64,000 nucleotides of DNA from contig CACJVT010000001.1 in assembly GCA_902596925.1 (NCBI GenBank), positions 62,001-126,000 on the forward strand, read 5' to 3'. The position numbers and the translations under genes were made by a program. The notes beneath the pieces are model-generated. The model searched no databases and had not been told where the DNA came from. It saw nothing but the letters and a program-made list of their open reading frames with translations. Origin of the DNA: an uncultured Pelagibacteraceae bacterium. GTDB taxonomy: Bacteria; Pseudomonadota; Alphaproteobacteria; Pelagibacterales; Pelagibacteraceae. Shown here one piece after another: positions 47,402-63,670 of the stretch. How positions within the stretch are numbered: position 1 is the first letter of the stretch; every line of letters begins with the position of its first letter.

Positions 47402-47860
47402 ATGCTTTTAAGAAGAAAATTTTTGAAATTATTTGGACTGTCTATACTTTTTGTATCATTGCCCTATCAATTTTTAAAGTCAGCAACAAAAAAACTTATT
47501 AATCCTGATCTTAGTAAAGCCCAAAAAGATATAATGTTTAAAGAGGGTACTGAGAGACCATTTACCAGTGAATTACTAAATGAAAAAAGAGATGGATTTT
47601 ATCATTGCGCAAACTGTGGAGCAAAGTTATTTTCATCAAAAGCAAAATTCGATAGTGGCACGGGTTGGCCTTCTTTTTCTGAAGCTTTGCCGGGAGCTTT
47701 TAAAACTAAGATTGATTATTCTTTTGGAATGAAAAGAATTGAATATCATTGTGCAAATTGTGGTGCACATCATGGCCACGTTTTTTTAGATGGACCCACT
47801 GCTACTGGAAAAAGATTTTGTAATAATGGATTGTGTTTAATTTTTGTACCAGAGAATTAA
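47402..47860 (+). CDS. msrB: Peptide-methionine (R)-S-oxide reductase with Tat signal
   Basis: Repairs oxidised methionine. The N-terminus LLRRKFLKLFGLSILFVSL fits a twin-arginine signal, so the enzyme is probably exported. In the 152 residues, zinc cysteines are Cys69/Cys72 and Cys117/Cys120 (both CANCGA), and the catalytic cysteine is Cys140 in RFCNNG. Cys145 replaces the usual small residue near the end and could be a resolving cysteine. The stop is interleaved with that of the HpsN-like gene. Confidence 0.92.
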   Translation: MLLRRKFLKLFGLSILFVSLPYQFLKSATKKLINPDLSKAQKDIMFKEGTERPFTSELLNEKRDGFYHCANCGAKLFSSKAKFDSGTGWPSFSEALPGAFKTKIDYSFGMKRIEYHCANCGAHHGHVFLDGPTATGKRFCNNGLCLIFVPEN

Positions 47861-49143
47861 TTAGAAAAACCATATTTTCTAAGTCTTACATCTCCTGTTC
47901 TCGCATGAGCTTCCATTCCCTCATATCTAGAAATTCTAGCTGCAGCAGCACCAACTAATTTAGTAGATTCTTTTGTCATTCTTTGAAAGCTTAAAGTTTT
48001 AATAAATTTTCCAACAAATAATCCGCCAGTGTATCTTCCTGCACCTTTAGTTGGTAAGATATGATTTGTACCAGAACATTTATCGCCGTATGCAACAGTT
48101 GTTTCTTCACCCACAAACAACGAACCATAATTTGTTAATCTTTCATGAAACCATTCTAAGTTTTCGGTCTGTACTTCTAAATGTTCAGGTGCATATTCGT
48201 CACTAATTTTCACTATTTCTTCATCAGTATCACAAAGAATTACTTCACCATAATCTCTCCACGCTGCTTCAGCACTTGTTCTTGGAACTTCTGGAAGTTC
48301 TGCAATTAATTCTGGAACTCTTTTCATTACTTTTTCGGCTAATTCTTTACTAGTTGTATAAAGCCAACACGGTGAGTTATATCCATGCTCAGCTTGTCCT
48401 ACTAAATCTACCGCAACAATTTCTGGATCAGCTTTAGCATCAGCTATAATTCCAATTTCAGTTGGTCCTGCAAACAAATCAATACCAACTTTTCCATACA
48501 AAATTCTTTTAGCCTCAGCCACAAATTGATTTCCTGGACCTACAATTATATCTGCTGGGGGATTATTGAACAATCCATTGGTCATTGCTGCAATTGCAGG
48601 AACTCCTCCTAAATTTAAAATAACATCTGCACCGCAAAGATCAGCTGTGTATACAATAGTAGGGTGGGCACCAACATCTTCTTTAGGAGGACTACATGCA
48701 ATAATATTTTTTACTCCAGCAACTTTTGCTGTAGTTACACTCATTACAGCAGATGCAATATGAGCGTATCTTCCACCCGGGATGTAGCAACCTGCTGTAT
48801 TAACAGGCACTAATTTTTGTCCTGCATACAAACCATCAGAAAGTTCTACCTCAAAATCTTGTCCATAATTTTTAAGTTGTGCTTCAGCAAATTTTCTAAC
48901 TCTTTCAAATGAAAATTGAATATCATCTTTGGTTTTTTGATCTAACGTTTTTTTAATTTCCTCAATTTTATCTTTTGATACTATGATGTCCCCATCATAC
49001 TTATCAAATTTTTTAGTTAAATCGATACAGCCTTGTTCTTTTGTTGTTTCGATATTTTTTAATAAATCTTGAACTATTCCAGTTGTCTTATTATCGTCTG
49101 TGGACGAAGTTTTTGGAGACTTTTTTAAATAAGTAATAGCCAT
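47857..49143 (-). CDS. hpsN: HpsN-like sulfopropanediol dehydrogenase (HisD superfamily)
   Basis: A 428-residue, zinc-dependent NAD dehydrogenase of the histidinol dehydrogenase superfamily. The metal/active-site stretches are GQAEHG, EHLEV and GTNHILPT. The substrate-region sequence AGCYIPGGRYAHIASAVMS and the N-terminus AITYLKK match HpsN, which oxidises (R)-2,3-dihydroxypropane-1-sulfonate to sulfolactate, rather than true HisD (GLYVPGGTAP). It is preceded by Pta-like and Ldh_2-like genes in the same direction, a setting that suits sulfonate breakdown. True HisD function is less likely but not excluded. Confidence 0.8.
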   Translation of the reverse strand: MAITYLKKSPKTSSTDDNKTTGIVQDLLKNIETTKEQGCIDLTKKFDKYDGDIIVSKDKIEEIKKTLDQKTKDDIQFSFERVRKFAEAQLKNYGQDFEVELSDGLYAGQKLVPVNTAGCYIPGGRYAHIASAVMSVTTAKVAGVKNIIACSPPKEDVGAHPTIVYTADLCGADVILNLGGVPAIAAMTNGLFNNPPADIIVGPGNQFVAEAKRILYGKVGIDLFAGPTEIGIIADAKADPEIVAVDLVGQAEHGYNSPCWLYTTSKELAEKVMKRVPELIAELPEVPRTSAEAAWRDYGEVILCDTDEEIVKISDEYAPEHLEVQTENLEWFHERLTNYGSLFVGEETTVAYGDKCSGTNHILPTKGAGRYTGGLFVGKFIKTLSFQRMTKESTKLVGAAAARISRYEGMEAHARTGDVRLRKYGFSN

Positions 49144-49205
49144 TAATATGTTTTTATAATTGATGAATTATTTAAGACAAATTTAATTTTATTGCAATCA
49201 AACAT

Positions 49206-50117
49206 TTAATCTAGTGCAACAACAGCTGCAGCTATTGATGCCAGTCTTGCAGGTGCTTCATCGGAGCGGCTAGTAATTACCACAGGTACTTTACCACCTA
49301 CAACTACTCCTGCAGCACATGCACCACTAAAATATATTAACATCTTTACCAATGCATTACCTGTCTCAACACTGGGCACTAATAAAACATCAGCAATTCC
49401 TGCAACATCATTTTGAATACCTTTAATAGTTGCAGATTTTTTTGATATGCTATTATCAAAAGCTAAAGGCCCAAATACATCAGCATTTAAATTTTCTTTT
49501 TTTGCAAGATTTGTAATTTCTTCAGCCTCTTTAGAACTTGGCACACTATCTAAAACTTCTTCTGTGGCAGACAATACTGCAATTTTTGGTCTTTCAATTC
49601 CAATTCTATGAGAAAAATTAATTACATTTTTTAAAATATGCATTTTAGTTTTTACATTTGGTAACACATTTAAAGCACCATCGGTAATTATTAGAGGCTT
49701 ATCATCTTTTTCTAATGTCATATGCCAGATGTGACTTAACCTTGTTTTACCCAACAAGTTGTACTCTCTTTTTAAAACTTCTTTCATTAAAATATCTGTA
49801 TGTATATGTCCTTTTACTATAATTCTTATTTTTCCTTCACTCGCAAGTTTTGCAGCTATACCAGCAGTATTATTTTCAACTGGTTCATTAATAATTTCAT
49901 ATTTAGAAATATCCCACTTTAAGTCTTCTGCACACTTTAGAATTTCTTTTTCATCTCCTATAAAAATCGGATCAATTAAATTTTCTTTGACTGCATCTTG
50001 AACAGATAACATTGGCAATGGTTTCCCAGCATTAACAATTCCAGCTTTTACTCCTTTATTTTTTAGGGCAGCATTTAATAGATTATTTGGAACAATAATT
50101 TCCTTATTTGAAATCAT
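49206..50117 (-). CDS. Phosphate acetyl/butyryltransferase (Pta/Ptb family)
   Basis: A 303-residue enzyme of the short Pta/Ptb type (without the N-terminal P-loop domain of long Pta). Seen are KGHIHTDILMKEVLKRE, ITDGALNVLPN, the VPSVETGNALVKMLIYFSGA region and VVVGGKVPVVITSRSD. It makes acyl-CoA from acyl phosphate. In bacteria that degrade taurine or other sulfonates through Xsc, a gene of this kind converts the acetyl phosphate to acetyl-CoA. Here it sits between HpsN-like and Ldh_2 genes. Confidence 0.85.
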   Translation of the reverse strand: MISNKEIIVPNNLLNAALKNKGVKAGIVNAGKPLPMLSVQDAVKENLIDPIFIGDEKEILKCAEDLKWDISKYEIINEPVENNTAGIAAKLASEGKIRIIVKGHIHTDILMKEVLKREYNLLGKTRLSHIWHMTLEKDDKPLIITDGALNVLPNVKTKMHILKNVINFSHRIGIERPKIAVLSATEEVLDSVPSSKEAEEITNLAKKENLNADVFGPLAFDNSISKKSATIKGIQNDVAGIADVLLVPSVETGNALVKMLIYFSGACAAGVVVGGKVPVVITSRSDEAPARLASIAAAVVALD

Positions 50118-50119
50118 AA

Positions 50120-51130
50120 TTAGTTTATTAGGGTCTCTAATTCTTTTTTAATAATTTTAGAGATTTTAATCTCTTTTTTTAAATTCATTTTATATCTTTT
50201 ATATTTATTTTGTCCTGGATACATTATTTCTTTTATTCCTTTAACTTTAGGTAGTCGTTTTACTCTTTTGATATTATCTTTAATTCTTTGATTATAATCT
50301 TTTACAAATAAATTTGTTTTAAATGTGATAAACAAATGCCCTATATTTTGTGGTCCAGTAAAATCCTCAAAAGGATCTTTAACTCTACCAGCATGATTAC
50401 CACCAGTTATAACACCACTCAATATATCAACCATCCATGCCAATCCTGAACCTCTAAATCCTGCAATAGGTAACTGAACACCTTTAAGAGCTTTATTCGC
50501 ATCGGTTGTTGGTTTACCAAACTTATCTAAGGCAACACCGACTGGGAGTTTCTGATTATTTTTTGATGCAAATCTGATCTTTCCTCTATTGATCATTGAA
50601 ATTGATGAGTCAAAAATAAAAGGTGCTTTTGAACCACTAGGTGTTCCAAAACAAATAGGATTAGTTCCAAATAAACTTTTTCGAGCTCCGTGAGGAGCAA
50701 TTGCAGGGGGTGCATTTGTGTAGATCATGGTAATCAAGTTTTCTTTAATAGCTTGTTGAGCGTAATAACTTGACAAACCATAATGGCCACTGTTTTTTAC
50801 TGCAACCAAACCCATACCAGTTTTTTTTGCATTTTGAATTGCTTTTTTTATAGCTATATCTGCTGCAACAAAACCAATGCTGTTATTAGCATCTATGTGT
50901 GAAATTGATTGAGATATTTTCTTTATTTTTATTTTTGGTTTAGGATTTATTACTTTTTTTTTAATCCTATCACAGTACATCTTTAGTCTTGATAAACCAT
51001 GACCATAGGCTCCAGCTAATTCAGCATTGATAAGTGCTTTTGCTGAAATATCAGCATGATTAGAATTTAATTTATGTTTTACAAAAATACTTTTTACTAA
51101 ATTAAGAAGCTTTTTATTTTTGGTGTTCAA
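50120..51130 (-). CDS. Ldh_2 (malate/L-lactate/sulfolactate dehydrogenase) family enzyme
   Basis: A 336-residue NAD(P)-dependent oxidoreductase of the Ldh_2 family. Seen are AYGHGLSRLKMYC, the catalytic His in KNSGHYGLSSYYAQQA, TNAPPAIAPHGA and the FRGSGLAWMVDILSGVITGG stretch. This family includes sulfolactate dehydrogenase ComC, ureidoglycolate dehydrogenase and malate dehydrogenase. Next to the HpsN-like gene, oxidation of sulfolactate to sulfopyruvate is a reasonable guess but is not shown by sequence. The start overlaps the sugar epimerase gene by 17 bp, linking it to the sugar island. Confidence 0.8.
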   Translation of the reverse strand: MNTKNKKLLNLVKSIFVKHKLNSNHADISAKALINAELAGAYGHGLSRLKMYCDRIKKKVINPKPKIKIKKISQSISHIDANNSIGFVAADIAIKKAIQNAKKTGMGLVAVKNSGHYGLSSYYAQQAIKENLITMIYTNAPPAIAPHGARKSLFGTNPICFGTPSGSKAPFIFDSSISMINRGKIRFASKNNQKLPVGVALDKFGKPTTDANKALKGVQLPIAGFRGSGLAWMVDILSGVITGGNHAGRVKDPFEDFTGPQNIGHLFITFKTNLFVKDYNQRIKDNIKRVKRLPKVKGIKEIMYPGQNKYKRYKMNLKKEIKISKIIKKELETLIN

Positions 51131-52163
51131 CTAATTCCTCAATAATTTTTTTTGTATTATACTTTTGCTTCCATTTTGGATAATGTTTTTTAAATTTAGA
51201 AGTATTAGAAATATACCAGATATGATCACCAACTCTTGGGCTTTTTAAAATTTTTCTTTTAATTTTAATTTTGCCAATTTCTTCAACCAAGTCTAATGCC
51301 TCTATAATTGAGCAATTTGAATATCTTCCACCACCCATGTTATATATTTCACCATATCTAGGTTTATTATAAAATTGCCAGAAACAATTTACTAAATCAT
51401 TACTGTGTAAGTTATCTCTTACTTGCTTACCTTTATAACCAATTAAATTATATTTTTTCATTTTTAAACTTGCTTTTACTAAATAAGATAAAAATCCATG
51501 AAGTGTTGCACCACTATGATTTGGACCAGTGATGCACCCACCCCTAAAACATACTGTTTTTAATCCTACGTTTTTACCGTACTCTTGAACTATTAAATCC
51601 GCATAGGTTTTTGAAACACCAAAAAAACTATGTGTCGAGTTATCAATAGAAAAGTTTTCTTTAATACCATTATAGTTTTTATCTCTTTTATTTAATTCCC
51701 ACCTAGTTTTTTTCTCAATAATGTTTAGTTTATTAGGATTATCACCATACACCTTGTTAGTTGACATGAAAATAAAAGGAGCATTTGGAGAGTATTTTTT
51801 TGTTAATTCAAGAAGATTGAGAGTACCTGTTGCATTTACATTAAAATCTAAAAAAGGATAATTCTTTCCATAATCATGAGATGGTTGGGCCGCACAATGT
51901 ATTATTACTGATATTTTTTTTGAGTATTTTTTAAATATTTTCTCTAAGCCTGTAAAATTTCGTATGTCTAAATGGTAATTTCTAAAATTTTTATTTCTTT
52001 TTAAAAGTTGAGATTTAAGCCAAATTGTAGAGCCATTTTTTCCAAAAAATAACTTTCTTAAGTTATTATCAATACCAATAATATCAAATCCTTTGTCATG
52101 AAAAAAATTGACAGCTTCAGATCCAACTAATCCTGTAGAGCCTGTGATAATTGCTAATGACAT
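51114..52163 (-). CDS. CDP-paratose/tyvelose 2-epimerase-like SDR enzyme (first copy)
   Basis: A 349-residue extended short-chain dehydrogenase. NAD-binding GSTGLVGS, the CAAQPSHDYGKNYPFLDFNV stretch and MSTNKVYGDNPNKL are typical of CDP-paratose 2-epimerases. The CFRGGCITGPNHSGA region and NCSIIEALDLVEEIG also fit. The usual catalytic Tyr of YxxxK is Phe here (SFFGVSK). The role is nucleotide-sugar epimerisation for a surface polysaccharide; the sugar is unknown. It overlaps the neighbouring epimerase gene by 1 bp. Confidence 0.82.
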   Translation of the reverse strand: MSLAIITGSTGLVGSEAVNFFHDKGFDIIGIDNNLRKLFFGKNGSTIWLKSQLLKRNKNFRNYHLDIRNFTGLEKIFKKYSKKISVIIHCAAQPSHDYGKNYPFLDFNVNATGTLNLLELTKKYSPNAPFIFMSTNKVYGDNPNKLNIIEKKTRWELNKRDKNYNGIKENFSIDNSTHSFFGVSKTYADLIVQEYGKNVGLKTVCFRGGCITGPNHSGATLHGFLSYLVKASLKMKKYNLIGYKGKQVRDNLHSNDLVNCFWQFYNKPRYGEIYNMGGGRYSNCSIIEALDLVEEIGKIKIKRKILKSPRVGDHIWYISNTSKFKKHYPKWKQKYNTKKIIEELVEHQK

Positions 52164-53185
52164 TAGAAATATTTGTTTATTATTGATTGATTATTTTTTA
52201 ACCACAAAAAAGTATCGCTAACAACCTTTAAAATATTTCTTCTTGGTTTCCAGCCATAAGTTTTTGTTACATGATAATTATTAGTTATAAAATATGGAAT
52301 GTCATAAATAGATGTTTTTGGAACTTTGGTGAATTTAATTTTATTATTGGTAATTCTCTCACAGATATGAGTTAATTGCTTCAAAGAGGCATAACTTTTT
52401 TTTGAACCACCTACAGTGAAAATTTTATTGTTAATTTTGTTAAATTTTCTTATTTGTAAATTTATTAATTCACATAAATCATCAATGTGTAATACATCTC
52501 TTACTTGATTTCCTAAACCACCATAACCTATATATTTCATTTTTTTCTTTTTCAGATGAGCCCATATCCATAAACTTACAAAACCTTGATCTTGTTTTCC
52601 AAACTGCAAAGGTCCAGAAATAACCCCACACCTATTAATTAGGAATTTTAGATTAAAAGCATAAGCAAATTCCTCTATTAGCATTTCAGATGACAATTTA
52701 GTTAAACCATATATTGTTTTTGGTCCTTGAAGATTATCATTTTCACCAAAAGTTTTTTTTATTTTAATCTTAGAAGAAATAATTTTTTTTTTAACAATAT
52801 TATTCATATCTTTAATTGGATAAACTCTACTTGTTGAAAGAAATATTATTTTAGATCTGTCTTTTTTAGCTTTTTTTAAAATGTTTAATGTTCCTAAAAA
52901 ATTTGTATTTATTACACTATCAATATCTTTTTTTGAAACTTCTACAGCAGCCTCTGCACAGCAGTCTATAATTAAATCATACTTGGGTAATTTTCGTATT
53001 CTTTTAAAATTATGAATATCAAATTTATAATTTCTTATTTTTTTATTTCTTAACAGATTTAAATTATATCTTGACCCTTTTCTTGATAAATTATCTAGGC
53101 AATTAACATTAAAATTTTTAGATTTTAAAAACAATGCTAGATTAGTGCCTACAAAACCACAACCGCCAGTAATTAAAACTTTCAT
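52163..53185 (-). CDS. NAD-dependent sugar epimerase, CDP-paratose epimerase-like (second copy)
   Basis: A 340-residue extended SDR with GGCGFVGTNLALFL, the intact catalytic motif IYGLTK and a segment close to CDP-paratose 2-epimerase (GPLQFGKQDQGFVSLWIW, NQVRDVLHIDDLCEL). It is clearly different from the previous gene but of the same broad family. The 5' end overlaps the GT2 gene by 4 bp. It acts in nucleotide-sugar synthesis for the cell surface. Confidence 0.82.
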   Translation of the reverse strand: MKVLITGGCGFVGTNLALFLKSKNFNVNCLDNLSRKGSRYNLNLLRNKKIRNYKFDIHNFKRIRKLPKYDLIIDCCAEAAVEVSKKDIDSVINTNFLGTLNILKKAKKDRSKIIFLSTSRVYPIKDMNNIVKKKIISSKIKIKKTFGENDNLQGPKTIYGLTKLSSEMLIEEFAYAFNLKFLINRCGVISGPLQFGKQDQGFVSLWIWAHLKKKKMKYIGYGGLGNQVRDVLHIDDLCELINLQIRKFNKINNKIFTVGGSKKSYASLKQLTHICERITNNKIKFTKVPKTSIYDIPYFITNNYHVTKTYGWKPRRNILKVVSDTFLWLKNNQSIINKYF

Positions 53186-54033
53186 TTTTTAAATTTCTTA
53201 TAGTAGCTATGTTCTAATAAAATAAATTTTATTAAAATTGCAAAATTAATAAATATAAAATTAAATTCTAATTTTATAAGGTTTTTTACAGATCTTTTAA
53301 AAAAAAATTTTATTTGTTTAATAGATAATTTAAATGTTTTGTAAATTGAAGGTTTTTTCATCTTATATCCAAATGAATGGTACCGCCAAACTCTACTTGA
53401 TAAAGAGTCTAAATTATCATCTTGTAAATGTTTTGATAATGCATCAGAGCAATATTTGATATTGATGTGATTATGAAGCTTAATTTTATTTGTATAATCA
53501 ATATCTTCACCGTTTGTTAGCAAGTTTTCATCATATCCTCCAACAGTTTCCCACACAGATTTAGTTTGGATTGTATTGCAACCAAATAAAAAAGGTGGAT
53601 CATCAAAAGAGGTATCTCCCCAGTTTTGGCTATAATATTTTGCTCGCCATGCATTAAATCTGTTTTTAGTTAGTTCCTCTATCATTTTACCCCCACAGAT
53701 AATATCTTGATGTTGCTCGAAATTTTTTATCATGATTTCAAGCCAGTCTTTTTCTAAAACCACGTCTGCATCAATAGAGGTAACTATTTGATGAGAACTA
53801 GTTTTTACTCCCAAGTTTCTATTATATCCTAAACCTTTATTAACCGAATTACTGATTATATTTACATTGTTAAACTCTTTAACAATATTTTTTGTGAAGT
53901 CAGTTGAATTATCATCAATAACTATTATTTCATCAAATGGAATGGTTTGGTTTTTAATAGACTCTAGAGAATTTCTGATTGTTTTTTCAGCGTTATAAGC
54001 TGGGATATAGATACTTACACTTTTTGTATTCAC
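53182..54033 (-). CDS. Glycosyltransferase family 2
   Basis: A 283-residue GT-A glycosyltransferase. It starts with SIYIPAYNAEKTIRNSLESI. The DxD-type SIDADVVLEKDWLE follows, then GGYDENLLTNGEDIDYTNKI as acceptor/catalytic region. A hydrophobic stretch near the C-terminus (about residues 260-277) may anchor it to the membrane. It lies in the sugar island between the radical SAM and epimerase genes. Confidence 0.85.
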   Translation of the reverse strand: MNTKSVSIYIPAYNAEKTIRNSLESIKNQTIPFDEIIVIDDNSTDFTKNIVKEFNNVNIISNSVNKGLGYNRNLGVKTSSHQIVTSIDADVVLEKDWLEIMIKNFEQHQDIICGGKMIEELTKNRFNAWRAKYYSQNWGDTSFDDPPFLFGCNTIQTKSVWETVGGYDENLLTNGEDIDYTNKIKLHNHINIKYCSDALSKHLQDDNLDSLSSRVWRYHSFGYKMKKPSIYKTFKLSIKQIKFFFKRSVKNLIKLEFNFIFINFAILIKFILLEHSYYKKFKK

Positions 54034-54038
54034 AAATT

Positions 54039-55388
54039 TTAATTATCTTGCAAACTTTTCACTAAGCTTTGCCACTTTTTCCCTCCATCTTTTTGTCTAT
54101 CATATTCAGTATTAATACTTGCTCCAGGATAATTTTTTAGATCTTTAGTATTTAATGTATGAAGAGGAGTTCCTTCTATTTCTGCTGTTCCAGACTCTTG
54201 AACTGTATTAAAATTAGTTCTTTTAATAAATTCTTTGGTTTGCAACATTTGTTCTTTTGTTTCACCTGGCAATCCATAAGTAAAAGTTCCATGAACAGAC
54301 ATATTCAGACTTCTTAAATGATCAACAAGTTGATTAGTGTAATCTAAATCAAGATGTTTATTTACTATCTTATCTACTACGTATTGACTTCCAGACTCTA
54401 TTCCAATCTTTACTCCTTTACACCCATTGTCTCTCATAATTTTCCAATTTTCTTTTTTGCAGGTATCCGCTCTACACATTGCAAACCAAGGTATATTGTA
54501 TTTGCCAGCAACTTTACTAATTTCTACAGTATGTTTATTTCCTATGTTAAAAGTGTCATCATCGAAATAAATTGCCTCAAATTTATAATCACTAGTTAAT
54601 TTATCTAAAAAACCTTTTATGTAATCAGCTGAGTATTGTCTGACAGTTCTTTTATTTTCACCATCTGGATCATTTCCAGTCATTGTTGCTGGCCATACGC
54701 AGAAAATACATTTAAATGGACAGCCTCTACTTGTTAAAATATGAGCTTGTGGTGATAATTTATTCATTGGTATCGGATTTCCATCAAAATACTTATCGTA
54801 AATATTTTCATCATAATAAGGAAATGGAGAGTTATTCATTTCTTCTAAAGTTAAAAGATCATGTTCTATTAAACCACTTTTTCCATTGATGACTTTCATG
54901 ACATTCTTTTCAAACTCACCTTTCAAAACTGCATGAACAATATTGCTGTCCCATTTTTGAGCAGATGTAGATATTGGGCCTGCAACAATTATTTTTAAAT
55001 GGGGATACTTTTCTTTTATCTGCTTTATAAGCTTATAATCGTGATCCCAAGATGGCGTAGCACTTTCAATTAAAAAATATTCTAGTTTTTTTTCTATGGA
55101 GTCTAAGTATTTATAAAAACTCTCATAAGATTCTGATAAGGCAATACTGTCTCTAAAAAAAACTTCTTTTTCCCCCATTATTCTAGATGCATAGGTTGTT
55201 GCGTAGCCTAAGAAATAAGGGTAGGGAATGTAGTCATTAGCTCTTGGATTATCTGGTGTACATCTTCCAAGATAGGTAAATGGCCATCTAGAACCTGATC
55301 GTACACCTCTTCGCCACCTTTTTTTTCTTAAAAAACCTCTACTCTCTTTATTTTCCCACCATGGAGGATTACTGAACAAAATTGACAT
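54039..55388 (-). CDS. Radical SAM protein with B12-binding-like N-terminus
   Basis: A 449-residue enzyme with the radical SAM cysteine motif in TSRGCPFKCIFCVWPA (CxxxCxxC) near residue 220, a DDDTFNIG stretch and TYGLPGETKEQMLQ in the barrel. The N-terminal 180 residues fit a B12-binding-like domain (LIESATPSWDHDYKLIKQIK), although the classical DxHxxG motif is not evident. In sugar clusters such enzymes modify sugars or lipids; the product is unknown. It is divergent from the GT17 gene with 63 bp between starts. Confidence 0.8.
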   Translation of the reverse strand: MSILFSNPPWWENKESRGFLRKKRWRRGVRSGSRWPFTYLGRCTPDNPRANDYIPYPYFLGYATTYASRIMGEKEVFFRDSIALSESYESFYKYLDSIEKKLEYFLIESATPSWDHDYKLIKQIKEKYPHLKIIVAGPISTSAQKWDSNIVHAVLKGEFEKNVMKVINGKSGLIEHDLLTLEEMNNSPFPYYDENIYDKYFDGNPIPMNKLSPQAHILTSRGCPFKCIFCVWPATMTGNDPDGENKRTVRQYSADYIKGFLDKLTSDYKFEAIYFDDDTFNIGNKHTVEISKVAGKYNIPWFAMCRADTCKKENWKIMRDNGCKGVKIGIESGSQYVVDKIVNKHLDLDYTNQLVDHLRSLNMSVHGTFTYGLPGETKEQMLQTKEFIKRTNFNTVQESGTAEIEGTPLHTLNTKDLKNYPGASINTEYDRQKDGGKKWQSLVKSLQDN

Positions 55389-55451
55389 AATAAGCTCTAG
55401 TTATAGTTTATTTTGAAATCAATCAACTAAAGATTTATATACTTATCATAT

Positions 55452-56336: not shown

Positions 56337-56384
56337 TTCAGGCTTTACTACTTGATTAAATAATAATTAAAACTATAAGAAATT

Positions 56385-57272
56385 ATGTCAAAAAAAAATA
56401 CCATTTTAGTGACTGGCGGTGCAGGCTTTGTTGGTTCAAATTTGATAGATTATTTGTTAAAAAAAACTATTTATCATATTATTAGCATAGATAACTATTC
56501 ATCAGGTTTTAAAAAGAATCATCTTAAAAATAAACGGATTAGATACATTAAAGCGAATACCAAGGATATTGCAAAAACAATTAGTAATCCAAAAAAAATT
56601 AAAGTGGTTTTTCATTTTGGAGAATTTGCAAGGATCTACCAAAGCTTTATAAACATGAATGAATGCATAGATTCTAATACAGTTGGAACCAATTCAGTAT
56701 TTAATTTTTGTTTAAAAAATAAGATTAAACTTATTTACTCCGCAACCTCTGCTTCATTAGGAAATAAAGGAAATGATAAAAACTTATCACCTTATGCTTT
56801 TACAAAAGCTAAAAATTTAGAACTATTAGAAAATTTAAAAAAATGGTTTAATTTTAAGTTTGAAGTAATCTATTTTTATAACGTTTATGGTCCAAAACAA
56901 ATATCTAAAGGAAAAATGTCCACAGTGATTGGTATATTTGAAGAGGCTTATAAAAATAAAAAACCTTTACCGGTTGTAAAACCAGGCTCACAATCAAGAC
57001 GATTCACTCATATAAATGATACCATTGAAGTGTGTTATTTGGCGTGGAAAAAAAATTTATCACGTCATTATAGTATTGCTAGTAAAGAAAGTTATTCAAT
57101 TATTGAAGTTGCTAAAATGTTTAAATCCAAAATAAAATTTTTGAATAAGAGACCAGGAGAGAGATATGCATCTGCACTAACAAACATGAACTTATCTAAT
57201 AAAGTTTATCGTCATTTTGGTAAAATCAAACTTTCAAAATATATTAATGATTTTTTAATTAAAAATAGTTAG
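56385..57272 (+). CDS. GalE-like NAD-dependent sugar epimerase
   Basis: A 295-residue SDR enzyme with VTGGAGFVGSNLIDYL, DNYSSGFKKNHL and the catalytic YAFTK motif. The FYNVYGPKQISKGKMSTVI stretch fits UDP-sugar 4-epimerases (GalE/WbpP type). At 295 residues it is shorter than GalE (about 330). It ends the sugar island; its stop is interleaved with that of tauC. Confidence 0.83.
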   Translation: MSKKNTILVTGGAGFVGSNLIDYLLKKTIYHIISIDNYSSGFKKNHLKNKRIRYIKANTKDIAKTISNPKKIKVVFHFGEFARIYQSFINMNECIDSNTVGTNSVFNFCLKNKIKLIYSATSASLGNKGNDKNLSPYAFTKAKNLELLENLKKWFNFKFEVIYFYNVYGPKQISKGKMSTVIGIFEEAYKNKKPLPVVKPGSQSRRFTHINDTIEVCYLAWKKNLSRHYSIASKESYSIIEVAKMFKSKIKFLNKRPGERYASALTNMNLSNKVYRHFGKIKLSKYINDFLIKNS

Positions 57273-59194
57273 CCCTTACCTCTCCAAGGTATAGTTTTAT
57301 CAATTATTTTTCTTAAAGTAATATCAAACAATAATCCAAGCATTCCCATAATAAAAATAGTTATCCAAATTACCTCGTATTGAAAGTATTTTTTTGCTAC
57401 ATTTTCAACGAAACCAATACCAGTAGTTCCTGCTAAAAATTCTGCCGCAACTAATGTTCCCCAACACATACCCACTGCAACTCTAATACCAGTAAGTATC
57501 TCTGGTAATGAGTTAGGAAAAATAACATGTCTTAAAATTTGTCTTTTTGATGCTCCTAATGAGTGAGCTGCATGAATTTTTGATAATTGTGTGCCAGATG
57601 CACCAGCTCTTGCTGAGATAATCATTATAGATAAAGACACCATAAATAATAAGAATACTTTTCCAGTATTATCAATTCCTAAAACTGAAATAATAAGTGG
57701 AGCCCATGCAAGAGGTGGTACTGGTCTATAAAGCTCAATTAAAGGATCAAAGAAACCTTTTGCGAATCTATTTAATCCCATAAATAGACCAAGTGGTACA
57801 CCAATTAATATTCCAAAAACTAAACCAAGAAAAACTCTCAAAAAAGAATCCCAAATATGTCCGTATGGAACAGGCACTTTAAATAAATTAAAATCACCAG
57901 TTACAATTTTAAGAACTCCACCTTTAAAATTTTGTTTTACTATTCCATCTTTATTATGAACAGGATACTCACCTGGTAAAATATCTGCAATCCAGTCTGG
58001 CAAAATAAAGCCAATCATTTTGCTCACATCAACCATTTGTATCCACAATAGAGGAATATCTTTATAACCTACGCTGGGTTTTGACATTAATATAAATTTA
58101 TTGAGAGTATCCGAAGGTTTAGGTAACCATCTACCCGATCCCTGTTCTGAACAACTTGGACCACTGGCAACGATAGTACCTGCAGGAAACAAGAAAATAT
58201 CAATTAATCTCAATCCACCTTGTTCTTTTTTTTGAGCATCATCAAATTTGACAATTGCTGCTTGCATCTTATCTAATGCATTTGGTGGGTAGATACTTGC
58301 AAATTCTATTCTTCTAGCAATCTTAACAATATTTTTTGCGTATGTTGAAGCTATTTCCTCACTATCACTTAAACTTTTTCTGTAAGATTTAATTTCCTCC
58401 TTAATTTCCTTTATCTTATTTTTAAATTGAGGGTTATGATTTCTTAGCTTAAAAAATTCATCACTAATTAAATTTAATTCTTGAGCAGCAGTGTGAAACT
58501 TCAAACCTCTATACGTTGCAGGAACTAAAGGCACTTCTAATGTATTTTCAATAGAACCTGAGCCTGCATCTACTTTCGTGATACCCCAACCACCTTCTTC
58601 TTCTACCGCTTTAAGTCGCTCATTGAGTTCTTGCTCACTTTCAAATGGATAATCAGGTTTTTGGAAATTTTCAGTTAATAGATTAATTTTTCCAGTGATA
58701 TCATCTATTTTTTTTTCAGTCTCAATCTCCAACAAATCCTCATTTGTAAGTAATGGAATAAGTTGATTAGTTTTAGTTATATAACTAATTAGTATCGTTT
58801 TTTGTTGGCTATTTAGTTCCTCAGAATTTTGAATCTCATTTTGAATTAATTTTAAATTTTTATTCTCTTTTTTGATTTGAGAAGTACTTTTGAACTCTCT
58901 TTCTTCAATTGGAAATTGATATTTTAATCCAAGCAAAGAGTCATTAACTTTTGCAACTTGGCATAACTCGTTGGCAGATTTAGGATAAAATCCTTTAGCA
59001 ATATCCCAAGAATAATAGAGCCAAATTAAAAGTAAAAAACTACTTCCAACAATTACCCAATGAGTACCACCTAATGCTCTCTCTGGATTTCCAAATACAG
59101 CGTCTACTTTTTCAGTCTTAATCAATCTTCTTCCGTAAAGAATACAGCCGACTACGGCAAAGAATATTAGAAAAGTTAATATTTGAGTTAACAT
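57269..59194 (-). CDS. tauC: Taurine-type ABC transporter permease with long N-terminal extension
   Basis: Inner-membrane permease of the taurine/nitrate/sulfonate family. The C-terminal domain, from about residue 430, has several membrane segments and the EAA loop HAAHSLGASKRQILRHVIFP. It is preceded by about 400 residues with two membrane segments at the very start and a Glu/Lys-rich, coiled-coil-like, presumably periplasmic region. TauC of Escherichia coli has only about 275 residues. It is placed last in tauA-tauB-tauC, 0-1 bp from tauB. Taurine specificity is inferred from the neighbouring aminotransferase and alanine dehydrogenase. Confidence 0.85.
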   Translation of the reverse strand: MLTQILTFLIFFAVVGCILYGRRLIKTEKVDAVFGNPERALGGTHWVIVGSSFLLLIWLYYSWDIAKGFYPKSANELCQVAKVNDSLLGLKYQFPIEEREFKSTSQIKKENKNLKLIQNEIQNSEELNSQQKTILISYITKTNQLIPLLTNEDLLEIETEKKIDDITGKINLLTENFQKPDYPFESEQELNERLKAVEEEGGWGITKVDAGSGSIENTLEVPLVPATYRGLKFHTAAQELNLISDEFFKLRNHNPQFKNKIKEIKEEIKSYRKSLSDSEEIASTYAKNIVKIARRIEFASIYPPNALDKMQAAIVKFDDAQKKEQGGLRLIDIFLFPAGTIVASGPSCSEQGSGRWLPKPSDTLNKFILMSKPSVGYKDIPLLWIQMVDVSKMIGFILPDWIADILPGEYPVHNKDGIVKQNFKGGVLKIVTGDFNLFKVPVPYGHIWDSFLRVFLGLVFGILIGVPLGLFMGLNRFAKGFFDPLIELYRPVPPLAWAPLIISVLGIDNTGKVFLLFMVSLSIMIISARAGASGTQLSKIHAAHSLGASKRQILRHVIFPNSLPEILTGIRVAVGMCWGTLVAAEFLAGTTGIGFVENVAKKYFQYEVIWITIFIMGMLGLLFDITLRKIIDKTIPWRGKG

Positions 59195-59992
59195 TTAATT
59201 ATCTTTCCCCATAATTTCCTCTTCCATGTTCCAGATCATTTCAAGGATTTCTTCTCGTTTTTGCGAAAACTCTTTATTTTTTTTGATTTCTCTTAAATCT
59301 TCTTTTAAACCCATTGAAGCGAATGGTAGATTATATTCTTTATGTATTCTTCCTGGTCTTGGAGCCATCACATATAATCTTTCACCAAGAAGCAAAGCCT
59401 CCTCAACTGAGTGAGTAATAAGTATTATTGTTTTACCAGTTTCTTTCCAAATTTTTAAAACTAGAGACTGCATTTTTTCTCTTGTAAGAGCATCAAGAGC
59501 TCCCAATGGTTCATCCATTAAAATCAAATCTGGGTTGTTGATTAGACATCTTGCAAGAGCAACTCTTTGCTGCATTCCTCCAGATAGTTGATAAGTTGGA
59601 GTGTTTCCAAAACCTTTTAATCCAACAATCTCTAACCATTCATCAACTTTTTTTTGAGTTTCAACTGGATCTTCTTTTTTCATTCTTAATCCAAAGTTGA
59701 CATTTTCAGCAACTGTTAGCCATTCAAATAAAGCACCTTGTTGAAAAACCATTCCTCGCTCAACTCCTGGTCCATCTATTTCTTTATTATTTAGAGTAAT
59801 ACTTCCAGAAGTTGGTCTAATAAATCCTGCAGTAATGTTTAGCAATGTGGTCTTTCCACAACCAGAAGGCCCAAGAACTGTAAGAAGCTCTCCTTTTTTG
59901 AGAGTAAAATTTAAATCTTTTAATGCGTGAACAGTTTCTCCTTTAGGAGTTTTAAAAATCATATTCAGATTTTGTGAAACTAAATCACTCAT
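59195..59992 (-). CDS. tauB: Taurine-type ABC transporter ATPase
   Basis: A 265-residue ABC ATPase with Walker A GPSGCGKTT, Q-loop QQGALFEWLTV, signature LSGGMQQRVALARCL, Walker B LILMDEPLGALDALT and the H-loop ITHSVEEAL. It belongs to the taurine/nitrate/sulfonate (TauB/SsuB) branch. It follows tauA after an 88 bp spacer that holds a terminator-like hairpin, and abuts tauC. Confidence 0.9.
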   Translation of the reverse strand: MSDLVSQNLNMIFKTPKGETVHALKDLNFTLKKGELLTVLGPSGCGKTTLLNITAGFIRPTSGSITLNNKEIDGPGVERGMVFQQGALFEWLTVAENVNFGLRMKKEDPVETQKKVDEWLEIVGLKGFGNTPTYQLSGGMQQRVALARCLINNPDLILMDEPLGALDALTREKMQSLVLKIWKETGKTIILITHSVEEALLLGERLYVMAPRPGRIHKEYNLPFASMGLKEDLREIKKNKEFSQKREEILEMIWNMEEEIMGKDN

Positions 59993-60018
59993 AAAGAGAC
60001 TTTATATTTGAATTTTTA

Positions 60019-60059
60019 ATAAAAAAATAGGCACCAATTTATTACAATTGGCGCCTATT
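60019..60059 (-). terminator. Hairpin terminator/attenuator between tauA and tauB
   Basis: On the minus strand AATAGGCGCCAATT (60059-60046) pairs with AATTGGTGCCTATT (60039-60026); the only irregularity is one G-U pair. The 14 bp stem has a 6-base loop and is followed by a T-run. On the plus strand the same position would be an A-C mismatch, so it suits the minus-strand RNA. Confidence 0.85.
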
Positions 60060-60080
60060 AAAATTTTAATTACCCTTAGA

Positions 60081-61022
60081 TTATAAAGGTAAGAAACTAG
60101 TATCTACGTTTCCTCTTGGTGTTCCCATTCCTTTTAAGAATGCATCAAGATTTCCACTTTCCATAGATTGTTTAGTTTCTTCAGGTGTTAGAAATTTAAA
60201 GCCACTTAAAGTTTCTTTCATATCTGCAACTTTCATTTCAGAAGCTTTTGACATTGAGTTCATATCGCTTTTACCAGCTCTATATCTCGCATTAGCCTCA
60301 TGAGTTACTTCAATAAAAGTTCTTAGCATACCTGGGTTTTCCTTCATAAACTTGGTAGTTACTGAAGTGATATCGATACCTAAGATACCTGCGTCTCTAG
60401 CTTCTTGAACTGTAAGTAATCTAGATCCAACTGCGGTTGCAGCTTTAATCGAGTTACCACCAAATAAACATGCCATTACAACATCACCACTTACTAAAGC
60501 AGCAGCGCCTTCTTCAGGGTCCATTTGAATGATGTCCATTTTTTTTCTATCCGCACCAACAACTTTCATACTTTCATCAAAAACGTATTCAGCCATTGTA
60601 CCTAGCGGAACAGCAACTTTTTTACCTTCAAGTTCTGTAGCGTTAGCTTTTGTTATACCTGAAGCATTAGATGTTACACATGTTGTACCACCCATTCCGT
60701 ATTCCATAGCAATATCTACAAGTTTGATAGGAGCTTTTGATTTAACAGCATTAATGAATGGAACTAAACCTTGAGAGTAAGAGATATCAATATCTCCCGC
60801 TAACATAGCATCAGTCATTGCACCACCGTTAGTAAAGTTTGTCCACTTAACAGGAACCCCTAGAGCTTTGGCGAAGTTTTTCTTCATCATGTCCTCTAGA
60901 TTTGGGCTTGGCCACTCTAAGAAGTATGCAACTCTAACTTCATTAGCTGCAGAATTAGCAACTGAAATTGAAAGATTAAGAGCTACAAAACATCCAAGAA
61001 TAAAACTAATTATTTTTTTCAT
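60081..61022 (-). CDS. tauA: Taurine-type ABC transporter substrate-binding protein
   Basis: Periplasmic binding protein of about 313 residues with a Sec signal peptide (KKIISFILGCFVALNLSIS, cleavage near ANSAAN). NMT1/TauA-type stretches follow: VRVAYFLEWPSPNLEDMM, FTNGGAMTDAMLAGDIDISY and GKKVAVPLGTMAEY. The ATG at 61022 is chosen because GGAAGAGG lies just before it; an upstream TTG at 61055 would add 11 polar residues ahead of the signal peptide. It is divergent from the aminotransferase gene. Confidence 0.9.
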   Translation of the reverse strand: MKKIISFILGCFVALNLSISVANSAANEVRVAYFLEWPSPNLEDMMKKNFAKALGVPVKWTNFTNGGAMTDAMLAGDIDISYSQGLVPFINAVKSKAPIKLVDIAMEYGMGGTTCVTSNASGITKANATELEGKKVAVPLGTMAEYVFDESMKVVGADRKKMDIIQMDPEEGAAALVSGDVVMACLFGGNSIKAATAVGSRLLTVQEARDAGILGIDITSVTTKFMKENPGMLRTFIEVTHEANARYRAGKSDMNSMSKASEMKVADMKETLSGFKFLTPEETKQSMESGNLDAFLKGMGTPRGNVDTSFLPL

Positions 61023-61108
61023 TTTTCCTCTTCCTTGTTTATTTATATGTTTCAATTTTAAGATTAAATTGACCTATATGTAAAACAAAAAAATGCTCAT
61101 TCTAGTTA

Positions 61109-61125: not shown

Positions 61126-61134
61126 ACAATTATT

Positions 61135-61155: not shown

Positions 61156-61198
61156 TTAGTCTAAGGATTCATTAATTAACCAATTATAAAATTTTAAT

Positions 61199-62545
61199 AT
61201 GAGCTCAGAAAAAAGAACTTCTGTACCTAATTCTTTAAATGAACATTGGATGCCATTTACATCTAATAAAGATTTTAAAGAAAATCCAAAACTTATAGTG
61301 GAGGCAAAAGGTGTATATTTAAAAAATCACCAAGGTAAAACTCAAATTGATGCTAGCTCAGGATTATTCTGCAATCCTTTAGGACATGGTAGAAAAGAAA
61401 TTATTGAGGCAATAACAAATCAATTACAAACTTTAGATTATTGTCAACCCTTCCAACAAGGATTTGGTGGATCTTTTGAATTAGCAACTAGAATTTCAAA
61501 ACATACACCAGGAAATTTAAATAAAATTTTTTATACAATTTGTGGATCTACTGCAGTTGAAACAGCGATCAAAATTAGTATTGCCTATCATAAAGCAAGA
61601 GGCGAGGGACAAAGATTTAGATTTGTTGGAAGAGAACGTGCGTATCATGGGATGAATATTGGAGCAACATCAGTAGGTGGTATGATTAATAATGTCAAAG
61701 CTTATGCAAGTGTTTTGATGCCAGGTGTTGTTCATATGAGACATACACATTTAGATGAACATAAATTTATATCAGGTCAACCTGAAACAGGCGCTGAAAT
61801 TGCCAATGACTTAGAAAGAATTTGTACTAATTTTGGTTCAGAAAATATTGCAGCTTGTATTGTTGAACCAATTGCTGGATCAACAGGAACTTTAGTTCCA
61901 CCAGTTGGATATTTACAAAGATTAAGAGAACTTTGTGACAAACATAAAATTCTTTTGATTTTTGATGAAGTTATTACTGGATGGGGAAGAACTGGTTCAG
62001 CTTTTGGAGCTCAAGAGTTTGGTGTAACACCTGACATAATGACTATGGCTAAAGCAACAACAAATGGGATAGTTCCATTTGGTGTGGTTGCTTGTAAAGA
62101 GGAAATTTATGATGCTGTTATGGACAATTCTCCAAAAGGTGCGATTGAATTATTTCATGGCTATACATATTCAGGAATACCAGTGTCTGTTGCTGCAGCA
62201 TTAGCTGTTCAAGATATTTTTGAAAAAGAGGATATTTTTAATAGAGCAAAAGAACTGGCTCCTTACTTCCAAGAAGGTTTATTTTCTCTAAAAGATATTG
62301 ATGTAGTAGATAACATTAGAGGCTATGGAATGATGGGTGGTATAGATATTAAAACTGATGGTAGACCTGGTAAAGCGGGCTTAGCTACATTTAAACATTG
62401 TTATGACGCTGGAGTAAATTTTAAAGCTACTGGTGATTGTTTAATTATAGCTCCGATGTTTATTTGTGAGAAAAAACATATTGATGAAATCATTGAAAAA
62501 CTTAGAATTGGAATAACTAATTACGCAAAGAGTAAAAAGAATTAA
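61199..62545 (+). CDS. tpa: Class III aminotransferase, probable taurine/omega-amino acid:pyruvate aminotransferase
   Basis: A 448-residue PLP enzyme. The beginning EHWMPFTSNKDFKENP is typical of beta-alanine/omega-amino acid:pyruvate aminotransferases. The PLP aspartate is Asp256 in FDEVITGWGRTGS and the PLP lysine is Lys285 in MAKATTNG. Taurine:pyruvate aminotransferase is the favoured role because tauABC is divergent from it and alanine dehydrogenase follows 9 bp downstream. Beta-alanine or another omega-amine remains possible. Taurine would yield sulfoacetaldehyde and alanine. Confidence 0.82.
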   Translation: MSSEKRTSVPNSLNEHWMPFTSNKDFKENPKLIVEAKGVYLKNHQGKTQIDASSGLFCNPLGHGRKEIIEAITNQLQTLDYCQPFQQGFGGSFELATRISKHTPGNLNKIFYTICGSTAVETAIKISIAYHKARGEGQRFRFVGRERAYHGMNIGATSVGGMINNVKAYASVLMPGVVHMRHTHLDEHKFISGQPETGAEIANDLERICTNFGSENIAACIVEPIAGSTGTLVPPVGYLQRLRELCDKHKILLIFDEVITGWGRTGSAFGAQEFGVTPDIMTMAKATTNGIVPFGVVACKEEIYDAVMDNSPKGAIELFHGYTYSGIPVSVAAALAVQDIFEKEDIFNRAKELAPYFQEGLFSLKDIDVVDNIRGYGMMGGIDIKTDGRPGKAGLATFKHCYDAGVNFKATGDCLIIAPMFICEKKHIDEIIEKLRIGITNYAKSKKN

Positions 62546-62554
62546 ATTTCGTTA

Positions 62555-63670
62555 ATGAGAATTGGCGTACCCAAAGAAATTAAACCTCAAGAAAATAGAA
62601 TAGGCCTAACACCAGATAGTGTAAAAACTCTTGTCTCTGAGGGACACGAAGTATTAGTAGAAAACAATGGAGGCTTTGAGGCAGGTTTTGATAATGATCA
62701 GTACAAAAAAGCTGGTGCAAAAATTATAGAAAAAGCTACTGATATTTTTAATGATGCTGAAATAATTGTAAAAGTTAAAGAACCTCAAAAAGTTGAGGTT
62801 GAAATGATTAGAGAAAATCAAATCGTATATACTTATTTACATCTGGCTGCTGCAAAAGATTTGACGGCGGGTTTGGTTAAATCAAAAAGTATTAATATAG
62901 CTTATGAGACTATTACTGATGATAATGGAAGACTTCCTTTACTTGCACCTATGAGTGCCGTTGCAGGACGTATGTCAGTTCAAGCAGGAGCTCATTGTCT
63001 AGAAAAAAATCAAAAAGGTAGAGGAGTATTATTGGGTGGAGCTCCTGGTGGTGAACCAGCAAATGTTTTAATTTTAGGTGGAGGTGTGGTGGGAGAAAAC
63101 GCGGCAACTATAGCGACCGGCATGAAGGCAAAAGTTCATGTTGTAGATAAATCAGAAGCAAGACTAAAACAATTAGTTGAAATGTTTGGAGACAAAATAA
63201 TTCCTAAACAAAGTGACAAAATAGATTTGAAAACTTTAGTTGCTGAGGCAGATTTAATAGTAGGAGGAGTTTTAATCCCAGGAGCAGAGGCGCCTAAGCT
63301 AGTTACTAAAGATATGTTAAAATTAATGAAAAGAGGCTCAGTTATTGTTGATGTTGCAATTGATCAAGGGGGCTGTGTAGAAACGAGTAAACCAACAACT
63401 TTTAATAATCCAACTTTTATAGTTGATAATGTGGTTCATTATTGTGTAGCTAATATGCCAGGAGGGGTTCCTAGAACCTCAACAATTGCATTAAATAAAG
63501 CAACACTTCCATATTTAATTAAATTAGCCAACAAAGGTTATCAAAAAGCCCTTAGCGAGGATAAAAACTTTTTAGCAGGACTAAATGTTTGTAAAGGACA
63601 AGTTACATATAAAGCAGTGGCAGATATTTTTGGCTATGAATACATTAAACCTATAAACTCGTTAAGTTAG
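62555..63670 (+). CDS. ald: Alanine dehydrogenase
   Basis: Oxidative deamination of alanine to pyruvate and ammonium with NAD. The 371 residues begin RIGVPKEIKPQENRIGLTP and contain the substrate stretch YLHLAAAKDLT, the nucleotide fold VLILGGGVVGENAA and IDQGGCVETSKPTTF. It follows the aminotransferase by 9 bp. It would recycle the pyruvate acceptor consumed in taurine transamination and release ammonium for growth. It overlaps the convergent epimerase gene by 9 bp. Confidence 0.94.
   Translation: MRIGVPKEIKPQENRIGLTPDSVKTLVSEGHEVLVENNGGFEAGFDNDQYKKAGAKIIEKATDIFNDAEIIVKVKEPQKVEVEMIRENQIVYTYLHLAAAKDLTAGLVKSKSINIAYETITDDNGRLPLLAPMSAVAGRMSVQAGAHCLEKNQKGRGVLLGGAPGGEPANVLILGGGVVGENAATIATGMKAKVHVVDKSEARLKQLVEMFGDKIIPKQSDKIDLKTLVAEADLIVGGVLIPGAEAPKLVTKDMLKLMKRGSVIVDVAIDQGGCVETSKPTTFNNPTFIVDNVVHYCVANMPGGVPRTSTIALNKATLPYLIKLANKGYQKALSEDKNFLAGLNVCKGQVTYKAVADIFGYEYIKPINSLS

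Follow-up and report, generated by a model that had tools for sequence, protein, structure and literature searches.

The HpsN enzyme of SAR11, the xsc and suyAB genes, and the recombination-driven exchange of genomic islands are already in print, and the excerpts cited here outline the systems closest to the locus described below. SAR11, together with the Roseobacteraceae, is reported to be the primary degrader of 2,3-dihydroxypropane-1-sulfonate (DHPS) in seawater; SAR11 CuHpsN is active on R-DHPS (the SAR11 HpsN assayed being PU1002_02401), and the SAR11 homologs of hpsO, hpsP, and hpsN do not lie in one operon (PMC11131964). Taurine is taken up by a cultured SAR11 (PMC3090418), suyAB and xsc are core or near core in the Pelagibacteraceae, and AprAB handles sulfite (PMC12636525). 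Replacement flexible genomic islands are exchanged by homologous recombination (PMC4033161; Lopez-Perez et al. 2014). SAR11 rearrangements fall mostly at operon boundaries (3.21 per boundary versus 1.94 within operons), gene insertions and deletions occur in core regions between close strains, and hypervariable region 2 (HVR2) holds surface genes, with recombination in its flanks proposed (PMC2217521; Wilhelm et al. 2007). Here we describe a locus within a 64,000-nt stretch of contig CACJVT010000001.1 (the window, meaning the whole stretch analyzed, to which coordinates refer unless another contig or locus is named). With a probability of roughly 0.85, we read it from sequence comparisons as one C2/C3-sulfonate operon (tauABC-ldh2-pta-hpsN, with a divergent aminotransferase-ald pair) that was cut between tauC and ldh2 by a flexible island of sugar genes, the island being exchanged between SAR11 strains through homologous recombination in the flanking genes.

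The initial annotation of the window had proposed either that one organosulfonate region was split by a sugar island or that the sugar enzymes act together with the sulfonate genes. This interpretation was half right: the evolutionary event is real and well supported. In the literature searched (one collection, mostly at listing level), no description was found of the tauABC-ldh2-pta-hpsN operon, of its interruption, or of the hot spot around ldh2.

For comparison, we used the best 80 of at least 588 loci in public genomes from an HpsN search. Their titles name Pelagibacteraceae, Pelagibacterales, or Candidatus Pelagibacter (single cells, metagenome-assembled genomes, and a few strains), and by these nearest named relatives the genome that holds the window (G000; 1.12 Mb in 22 contigs, 97.7% complete) is SAR11. 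The usual arrangement in close relatives is tauA-tauB-tauC-ldh2-pta-hpsN, tightly packed and codirectional. The junction between tauC and ldh2 could be assessed in 58 of the 80 loci, the other 22 having no usable tauC or ldh2 match within the locus, and the two genes are adjacent in 44 of the 58. In printed junctions such as that of locus L010, the TTG start of ldh2 lies 1 nt past the tauC stop, and the seven empty loci printed are nearly uniform. Sugar genes are likewise missing from the operon of a genome consisting of one contig (G012, locus L113), where tauC and ldh2 stand about 200 bp apart. The uninterrupted form is the commoner one among the relatives compared, and both the split and the absence of the island from close relatives that the initial annotation had envisaged are borne out.

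Insertions into this operon are found on the two sides of ldh2. Counting inserts longer than 300 bp in the 80 loci, we found them in 13 of 58 cases at tauC|ldh2 and in 20 of 68 at ldh2|pta, and in none of 264 observations at the five other junctions (0/44 at ald|tpa, tpa being the aminotransferase gene; 0/45 at tpa|tauA; 0/48 at tauA|tauB; 0/50 at tauB|tauC; and 0/77 at pta|hpsN), a contrast with a Fisher probability of 2.6e-18 when relatedness is ignored. With 20 further loci of the genus, the counts become 23/75 and 33/88, respectively. These loci were hand-picked, 18 of them from 44 genomes with HpsN for an HpsN identity of 74 to 90% and room on the contig; the others are L113, for its one-contig genome, and L112, which carries rsam and thereby biases the extended count (22/74 at tauC|ldh2 without it). 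Among the 68 open reading frames (ORFs) of the tauC|ldh2 inserts, with the window excluded, 23 encode epimerases of the short-chain dehydrogenase/reductase (SDR) family, 12 glycosyltransferases of family 17 (GT17), 5 glycosyltransferases of family 2 (GT2), and 4 radical S-adenosylmethionine (SAM) proteins. Of the 100 ORFs in the ldh2|pta inserts, 21 belong to a bile-acid-symporter family and 13 to a helix-turn-helix family (TrmB), the two commonest families there.

The island of the window comprises six genes in 6.1 kb between tauC and ldh2, with a G+C content of 24 to 31% compared with 30 to 36% in the flanking sulfonate genes (per 1 kb), and the identity profiles at its borders, read in blocks of about 30 codons, point to exchange. 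Compared with the empty site of L010, tauC is 0.89 to 0.99 identical until its last 65 codons, where identity drops to 0.82 to 0.84; ldh2 begins at 0.55 over its first 28 codons, lies at 0.70 to 0.81 up to codon 168, and then returns to 0.92 to 0.99. Compared with L030, which has the same six genes, the borders are the more similar stretches: identity reaches 0.92 to 0.95 over the end of tauC and 0.96 over ldh2 codons 1 to 28, compared with 0.70 to 0.82 over ldh2 codons 56 to 223. Trees of tauC and ldh2 were made from 54 rows (13 with an insert and 41 empty), after removal of L084, whose 293-bp gap is not clearly an insert, and of matches less than 85% long or less than 55% identical, by which the insert-bearing L021 and L027 were left out. 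The insert state changes 7 times on the ldh2 tree, below all 200 shuffles (minimum, 8), and 10 times on the tauC tree, within the shuffles (minimum, 8; mean, 11.8), so the island and the 5' half of ldh2 tend to move together. The ratio of nonsynonymous to synonymous divergence (dN/dS) is low in both genes (0.03 in tauC and 0.07 to 0.11 in ldh2), and the raised divergence at the borders is mostly synonymous. Copies of ldh2 beside inserts have a higher dN/dS (0.109 versus 0.065), for which recombination alone could be sufficient.

Several observations weigh against a single flexible island exchanged within the operon. Because of relatedness among loci and the choice of the best 80 of at least 588, the counts do not represent independent events; the change counts, moreover, do not polarize gain versus loss. 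L017, with the same six genes, differs from the window at the borders (0.83 to 0.84 at the tauC end and 0.77 to 0.81 in the first 56 codons of ldh2) and is 0.93 to 0.96 identical to it in ldh2 codons 56 to 223; as L017 does not have the borders of the window, these were exchanged more than once, and the history is not one simple event. Inserts at tauC|ldh2 are also not confined to sugar genes, since L116 and L131 hold a tripartite ATP-independent periplasmic (TRAP) transporter, an aldehyde dehydrogenase, and an epoxide-hydrolase-like gene there. Across 61 mostly incomplete genomes of the genus, the presence of xsc and that of hpsN were not significantly associated (both in 34, xsc only in 10, hpsN only in 10, and neither in 7; Fisher p = 0.20). 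Finally, the deep lineage L112 (HpsN 84%) carries rsam-gt2-epi2-epi1-ldh2 with the same overlap between epi1 and ldh2 as the window; its rsam (86%) and epi1 (82%) show about core-like divergence, and gt2 (66%) and epi2 (72%) are more diverged. The arrangement is therefore old, and loss as well as transfer probably shaped its distribution. Taken to its limit, this would mean that the sugar genes stood inside the operon of the common ancestor and were lost in most lineages, and L122 agrees with L112 in carrying epi2-epi1-ldh2 with the same overlap (HpsN 83 to 84% in the two). We consider such an ancestral island quite improbable: empty sites occur in deep lineages as well (L115, with HpsN at 74%, and L117, L118, L123, L129, and L130), the near uniformity of the seven printed empty junctions is unlike independent deletions, and exchange is evident from the hybrid tracts in tauC and ldh2. 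An island that is exchanged by recombination, with some losses, is the reading that we carry forward.

Such an island resembles the replacement flexible genomic islands in that sugar genes stand at a fixed place, the gene sets vary by strain, the bordering genes are more diverged, and no mobility gene is among the families shown for the window and for the slot ORFs of the other loci. It differs in that the slot lies inside a catabolic operon, spans about 1 to 10 kb, and is empty in most strains compared. The similarity of function among the variants of a replacement island is likewise not found here, with 44 of 58 sites empty and some inserts holding a transporter, dehydrogenases, and an epoxide-hydrolase-like gene. 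The slot is also similar to the core-region insertions and deletions in the excerpt of PMC2217521 but lies inside a predicted operon rather than at a boundary. Membership in HVR2, which has rRNA genes at its flanks, was rejected, as the window has no rRNA or Rfam match and sulfonate genes flank the island. A mobile element was rejected, as there is no tRNA and the families shown (25 of 27 for the slot ORFs) include neither an integrase nor a transposase, and so was an RNA element, with no Rfam match at gathering level in the window.

The contents of the other inserts may be recorded in their own right. The cassette with the TRAP transporter, aldehyde dehydrogenase, and epoxide-hydrolase-like gene lies at L116:5752-11532 and L131:8013-13793, and DHPS is a possible substrate. 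The tauC|ldh2 inserts of L119, L124, and L125 hold a gene of the glucose/sorbosone-dehydrogenase family. A bile-acid-symporter-family transporter with a helix-turn-helix protein lies to the right of the window (L091:3110-4983) and, in the deep SAR11 lineage, between ldh2 and pta (L112:14424-16231 and others); the symporter-family protein is a candidate organic-anion or sulfonate transporter.

The second half of the initial interpretation, that the sugar enzymes act with the sulfonates, found no support in the comparison. It would have the two sets of enzymes share a pathway, such as one that builds or degrades a surface sugar carrying a sulfonate, and it draws on the neighborhood, on the overlap of epi1 and ldh2 kept wherever the two intact genes meet, and on weak matches of epi1 (33.9 bits) and epi2 (23.8 bits) to a UDP-sulfoquinovose synthase model. 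These scores are far under the cutoff of 575, and other SDR models score higher for both proteins. The island is absent from most of the compared relatives that have the operon, and other strains fill the slot with other gene sets. Orthologs of rsam are rare, occurring in 3 of 151 genomes of the genus, G000 included (a fourth has a 31% match), and matches below 1e-60 occur in 7 of 385 genomes of the class, again with G000. In six stretches around relatives of rsam (49 to 57% identical) from five other alphaproteobacterial genomes, tblastn returned no match to hpsN, pta, ldh2, tauA, tauC, the aminotransferase gene, or ald; one stretch (L108) has a generic ABC (ATP-binding cassette) ATPase 31% identical to tauB. 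An epi1-like SDR (50 to 53%) lies near rsam in three of the six (L106, L107, and L110) and an epi2-like one (36 to 38%) in two. Neighbors were annotated in three stretches, two of them with glycosyltransferases: in L106, two glycosyltransferases stand with two methyltransferases and a SPASM radical SAM protein; L111 has one glycosyltransferase, and L107 has a tetratricopeptide repeat protein and two proteins without a family. As far as these stretches tell, the sugar module also occurs independently of SAR11 and of these sulfonate genes, and we consider a shared pathway highly improbable.

We infer instead that the island enzymes modify a surface glycan, which rsam, GT2, GT17, and the three SDR genes would fit, and that they would take no part in sulfonate use. 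The three cluster cysteines of rsam are invariant across nine sequences, and its AlphaFold model is poor (mean predicted local distance difference test score, 52). All of the genes named in the initial annotation are open frames where it had placed them, and profile matches confirmed their families (Table 1).

Table 1. Sulfonate genes, sugar island, and exchanged tract in the window (Zn, zinc; NAD, nicotinamide adenine dinucleotide; strand "." for features without one)
Feature	Coordinates	Strand	Basis
hpsN, R-DHPS 3-dehydrogenase (Zn, NAD)	47857..49143	-	Best solved matches and diagnostic residues
pta, stand-alone phosphate acetyl/butyryltransferase	49206..50117	-	PF01515, 115 bits; NF006045, 288 bits (cutoff, 282)
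ldh2, Ldh_2-family 2-hydroxyacid dehydrogenase, candidate ComC-like R-sulfolactate dehydrogenase	50120..51130	-	NCBIfam and solved matches
Approximate extent of the exchanged tract (roughly the final 65 tauC codons, the island, and roughly the first 168 ldh2 codons)	50626..57466	.	Identity profiles
epi1, SDR NDP-sugar epimerase/dehydratase	51114..52163	-	PF01370, 117.6 bits
epi2, SDR NDP-sugar epimerase/dehydratase	52163..53185	-	PF01370, 117.5 bits
gt2, glycosyltransferase family 2	53182..54033	-	PF00535, 118.6 bits
rsam, radical SAM protein	54039..55388	-	PF04055, 59.5 bits; CxxxCxxC at residues 223-230 intact
63-bp gap from which rsam and gt17 diverge, presumed to hold divergent promoters	55389..55451	.	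Gene layout, sequence
gt17, GT17-type glycosyltransferase	55452..56336	+	PF04724, 50.5 bits (cutoff, 26; modest match)
galE3, SDR sugar epimerase	56385..57272	+	PF01370, 119.5 bits; tail to tail with tauC, 4-nt overlap
tauC, taurine/sulfonate ABC permease, long N-terminal extension	57269..59194	-	TauC model, 177.7 bits (cutoff, 342)
tauB, ABC ATPase	59195..59992	-	Taurine ABC ATPase model, 272 bits (cutoff, 357)
tauA, substrate-binding protein	60081..61055	-	SsuA family, 95.3 bits; solved match 6ssy
Class III aminotransferase, probable taurine:pyruvate transaminase	61199..62545	+	AptA omega-aminotransferase, 565 bits (cutoff, 500)
ald, alanine dehydrogenase	62555..63670	+	TIGR00518, 481 bits (cutoff, 392)

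The island may affect the expression of the downstream sulfonate genes. The 17-nt overlap between the 3' end of epi1 and the start of ldh2 (51114-51130), from which the initial annotation had suggested joint expression, is real and unchanged in all nine loci where an intact ldh2 follows immediately upon epi1 (the window, L017, L019, L026, L027, L030, L034, L112, and L122; 14 to 17 nt by match ends). In L021, ldh2 follows epi1 likewise but is frameshifted; another gene lies between the two in L016 and L023, and ldh2 is absent from L038 and L044. Joint expression is made plausible by this conservation, and no more than plausible. Within the island, galE3 and gt17 run against tauC, and rsam-gt2-epi2-epi1 run into ldh2, a layout that suggests that ldh2-pta-hpsN is now transcribed together with the sugar genes instead of tauABC. 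The three genes would have been severed from the tauA promoter and would now form the end of the rsam-gt2-epi2-epi1 transcription unit, with the sulfonate genes still functional despite the island.

Whether the island has in this way rewired the operon, setting ldh2-pta-hpsN under a sugar promoter and coexpressing DHPS use with glycan genes instead of taurine uptake, is in our estimate an even question. Transcription starting at tauA could reach ldh2 only by running through two genes in antisense orientation, the seven genes from rsam to hpsN are codirectional and closely packed, and the overlap persists; it may, however, persist merely because it is hard to lose, and ldh2, pta, or hpsN may have a promoter of its own (the pta-hpsN gap is 62 bp). 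A promoter scan of the window was not enriched over shuffles (57 sites versus 72.2 expected), so the island promoter between rsam and gt17 is placed there by layout. A bolder extension, which we regard as doubtful, is that the ldh2 junctions act as a docking slot at which each cassette swap puts ldh2-pta-hpsN behind another promoter and brings a hybrid ldh2, such that selection on surface sugars (by phages, for example) would also set DHPS use and the enzyme allele.

Among the sulfonate genes, hpsN can be named with the most detail. The best solved matches of its product are a sulfopropanediol 3-dehydrogenase (8v35; 8.5e-159) and an (R)-DHPS dehydrogenase (8wwe; 3e-148). An identity as HisD was rejected, as the best HisD match (1.5e-74) is weaker than both and the residues diagnostic of HpsN are present. 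In the excerpt of PMC11382572, which describes the CpHpsN structure, residues separating HpsN from HisD are given along with zinc-binding and catalytic ones, the residues named being the diagnostic His of the motif at 122-126, Glu318-His319, Asp352, Gln248, His251, and His411. In the alignment with 8v35, judged by eye and with the chain numbering counted one above that of PMC11382572, the window protein conserves the GRYAH motif with its diagnostic His, the Gln and His zinc ligands, the Glu-His pair, the Asp, and the C-terminal His. It is thus of the same enzyme family as CuHpsN and CpHpsN, with the diagnostic residues kept, and by these signatures would oxidize R-DHPS to R-sulfolactate. The initial label "HpsN-like" had the right family but was too weak. 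Its neighbors tauABC, ldh2, and pta are not mentioned in the excerpt of PMC11131964. HpsN is also the sole HisD-family protein found in G000, yet HisG is encoded at positions 937-1452 of contig C8, near the contig start; most other genomes of the genus that were searched have a separate HisD-like match (30 to 35%), and the lack of one in G000 is probably an assembly gap.

The Pta/Ptb-like protein scores below the equivalog cutoffs of both Pta and Ptb and above that of one subfamily only. It probably turns acetyl phosphate from Xsc into acetyl coenzyme A (acetyl-CoA). G000 holds one other PTA_PTB match, inside a 761-amino-acid (aa) frame that is probably a malic enzyme fusion.

Ldh2 is harder to place. 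Its best NCBIfam model is L-sulfolactate dehydrogenase (NF040650) and its best solved match is again an L-sulfolactate dehydrogenase (2x06; 1.3e-52), with malate and ureidoglycolate dehydrogenases ranking behind it, and the gene is intact in 57 of the 59 loci having both tauC and pta. These points argue against some other 2-hydroxyacid dehydrogenase that rides along with the flexible genes, an alternative that we find possible, if on the unlikely side, in view of a score (235 bits) far below the model's cutoff of 500, of the higher dN/dS beside inserts, and of the lost or broken copies. Only a short remnant of the gene is left in L013, the L021 copy is frameshifted, and L038 and L044, where epi1 directly precedes pta, lack it; from these sequences, Ldh2 looks dispensable in some strains.

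For TauA, TauB, and TauC, Tau models are the best or second-best family, yet all three score under the curated cutoffs; the best solved match of TauA is the taurine-binding protein 6ssy (1.7e-12). TauC has 641 aa, of which the permease model covers residues 444-640 only; the approximately 440 N-terminal residues lie outside the model, and full-length matches at 68 to 98% identity occur across relatives. The 88-bp gap between tauA and tauB contains a strong hairpin followed by a T run (60026-60059, minus strand), as if to allow more binding protein than transporter. The divergently encoded aminotransferase is closest to omega-amino acid/beta-alanine:pyruvate transaminases, with 4b98 (beta-alanine:pyruvate transaminase) as its best solved match, and its position beside tauABC makes it a probable taurine:pyruvate transaminase (Tpa). 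The product of ald would make pyruvate again from alanine.

Cleavage of the sulfonates would fall to genes elsewhere in the genome. Xsc is encoded on another contig of G000 (C13:14880-16607; 968 bits; cutoff, 676) and is above the cutoff in 44 of the 61 genomes of the genus. Eleven genomes reach 90% completeness or more; HpsN is present at 74% identity or more in all 11 and Xsc above the cutoff in 10, and in the eleventh, G054, the Xsc match reaches a contig end. In G000, xsc stands next to a SuyAB-like pair, AprA, an exporter of the YeiH type, and a protein judged by eye to be TauE-like. The pair is a two-part galactarate-dehydratase-like protein of 94 and 388 aa (TIGR03248, 39.8 and 156 bits; cutoff, 731); the sole solved match of its larger part is a galactarate dehydratase, and NCBIfam returned no SuyAB family. 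It is adjacent to xsc in all 10 loci inspected. We infer the names Tpa, SuyAB, and ComC-like Ldh2. A sulfolytic enzyme in the relatives, which had been set beforehand as a test, is thus found, and so is the co-occurrence of the HpsN-Pta-Ldh trio with tauABC.

These genes bear on the likely routes. ComE above its cutoff was not found in G000 (best, 38.7 bits versus 221.5; ComD was not searched for), and with the SuyAB-like pair present, R-sulfolactate could be cleaved directly, so that the Ldh_2 step need not follow HpsN. Of the DHPS route in the initial annotation, the predicted oxidation by HpsN to sulfolactate is kept, and the sulfolactate dehydrogenase would not be required as the next step. 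Taurine would enter by TauABC and be transaminated by Tpa, and the sulfoacetaldehyde would be cleaved by Xsc to acetyl phosphate for Pta. R-DHPS would be oxidized by HpsN to R-sulfolactate, from which the SuyAB-like lyase would give pyruvate and sulfite, and Ldh2 would act on a side branch between sulfolactate and sulfopyruvate. As in the known dissimilation of taurine and sulfolactate (Tpa/Ald/Xsc/Pta and HpsN/SuyAB), G000 has Xsc and a SuyAB-like pair beside AprA and an exporter; unlike it, the genes are split over two places, with islands cutting the part for uptake and HpsN.

Taurine and DHPS are algal sulfur compounds, and the composite tauABC-ldh2-pta-hpsN operon is a case of a streamlined genome grouping two sulfonates. 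With a recombination hot spot inside this operon, close strains may regulate DHPS use differently. The locus also indicates that small sugar cassettes are not confined to the large known variable region but can sit in a metabolic operon, with a clear footprint of how they move.

Two further groups of sugar genes lie nearby. A GalE-like SDR (63662-64000, continuing at L091:1-687) stands between ald and a gene for an 814-aa oxidoreductase/GcvT-like protein, and its C-terminal part is matched in none of the 80 close loci, though many end less than 2 kb from ald. An SDR 50% identical to it lies near ald in L126, and it is possibly a second small sugar insert. Genes of the dTDP-rhamnose type (RmlD-like by Pfam, the others by eye) and a GT2 gene are found at L091:7588-11619, 7.6 to 11.6 kb to the right of the window end.

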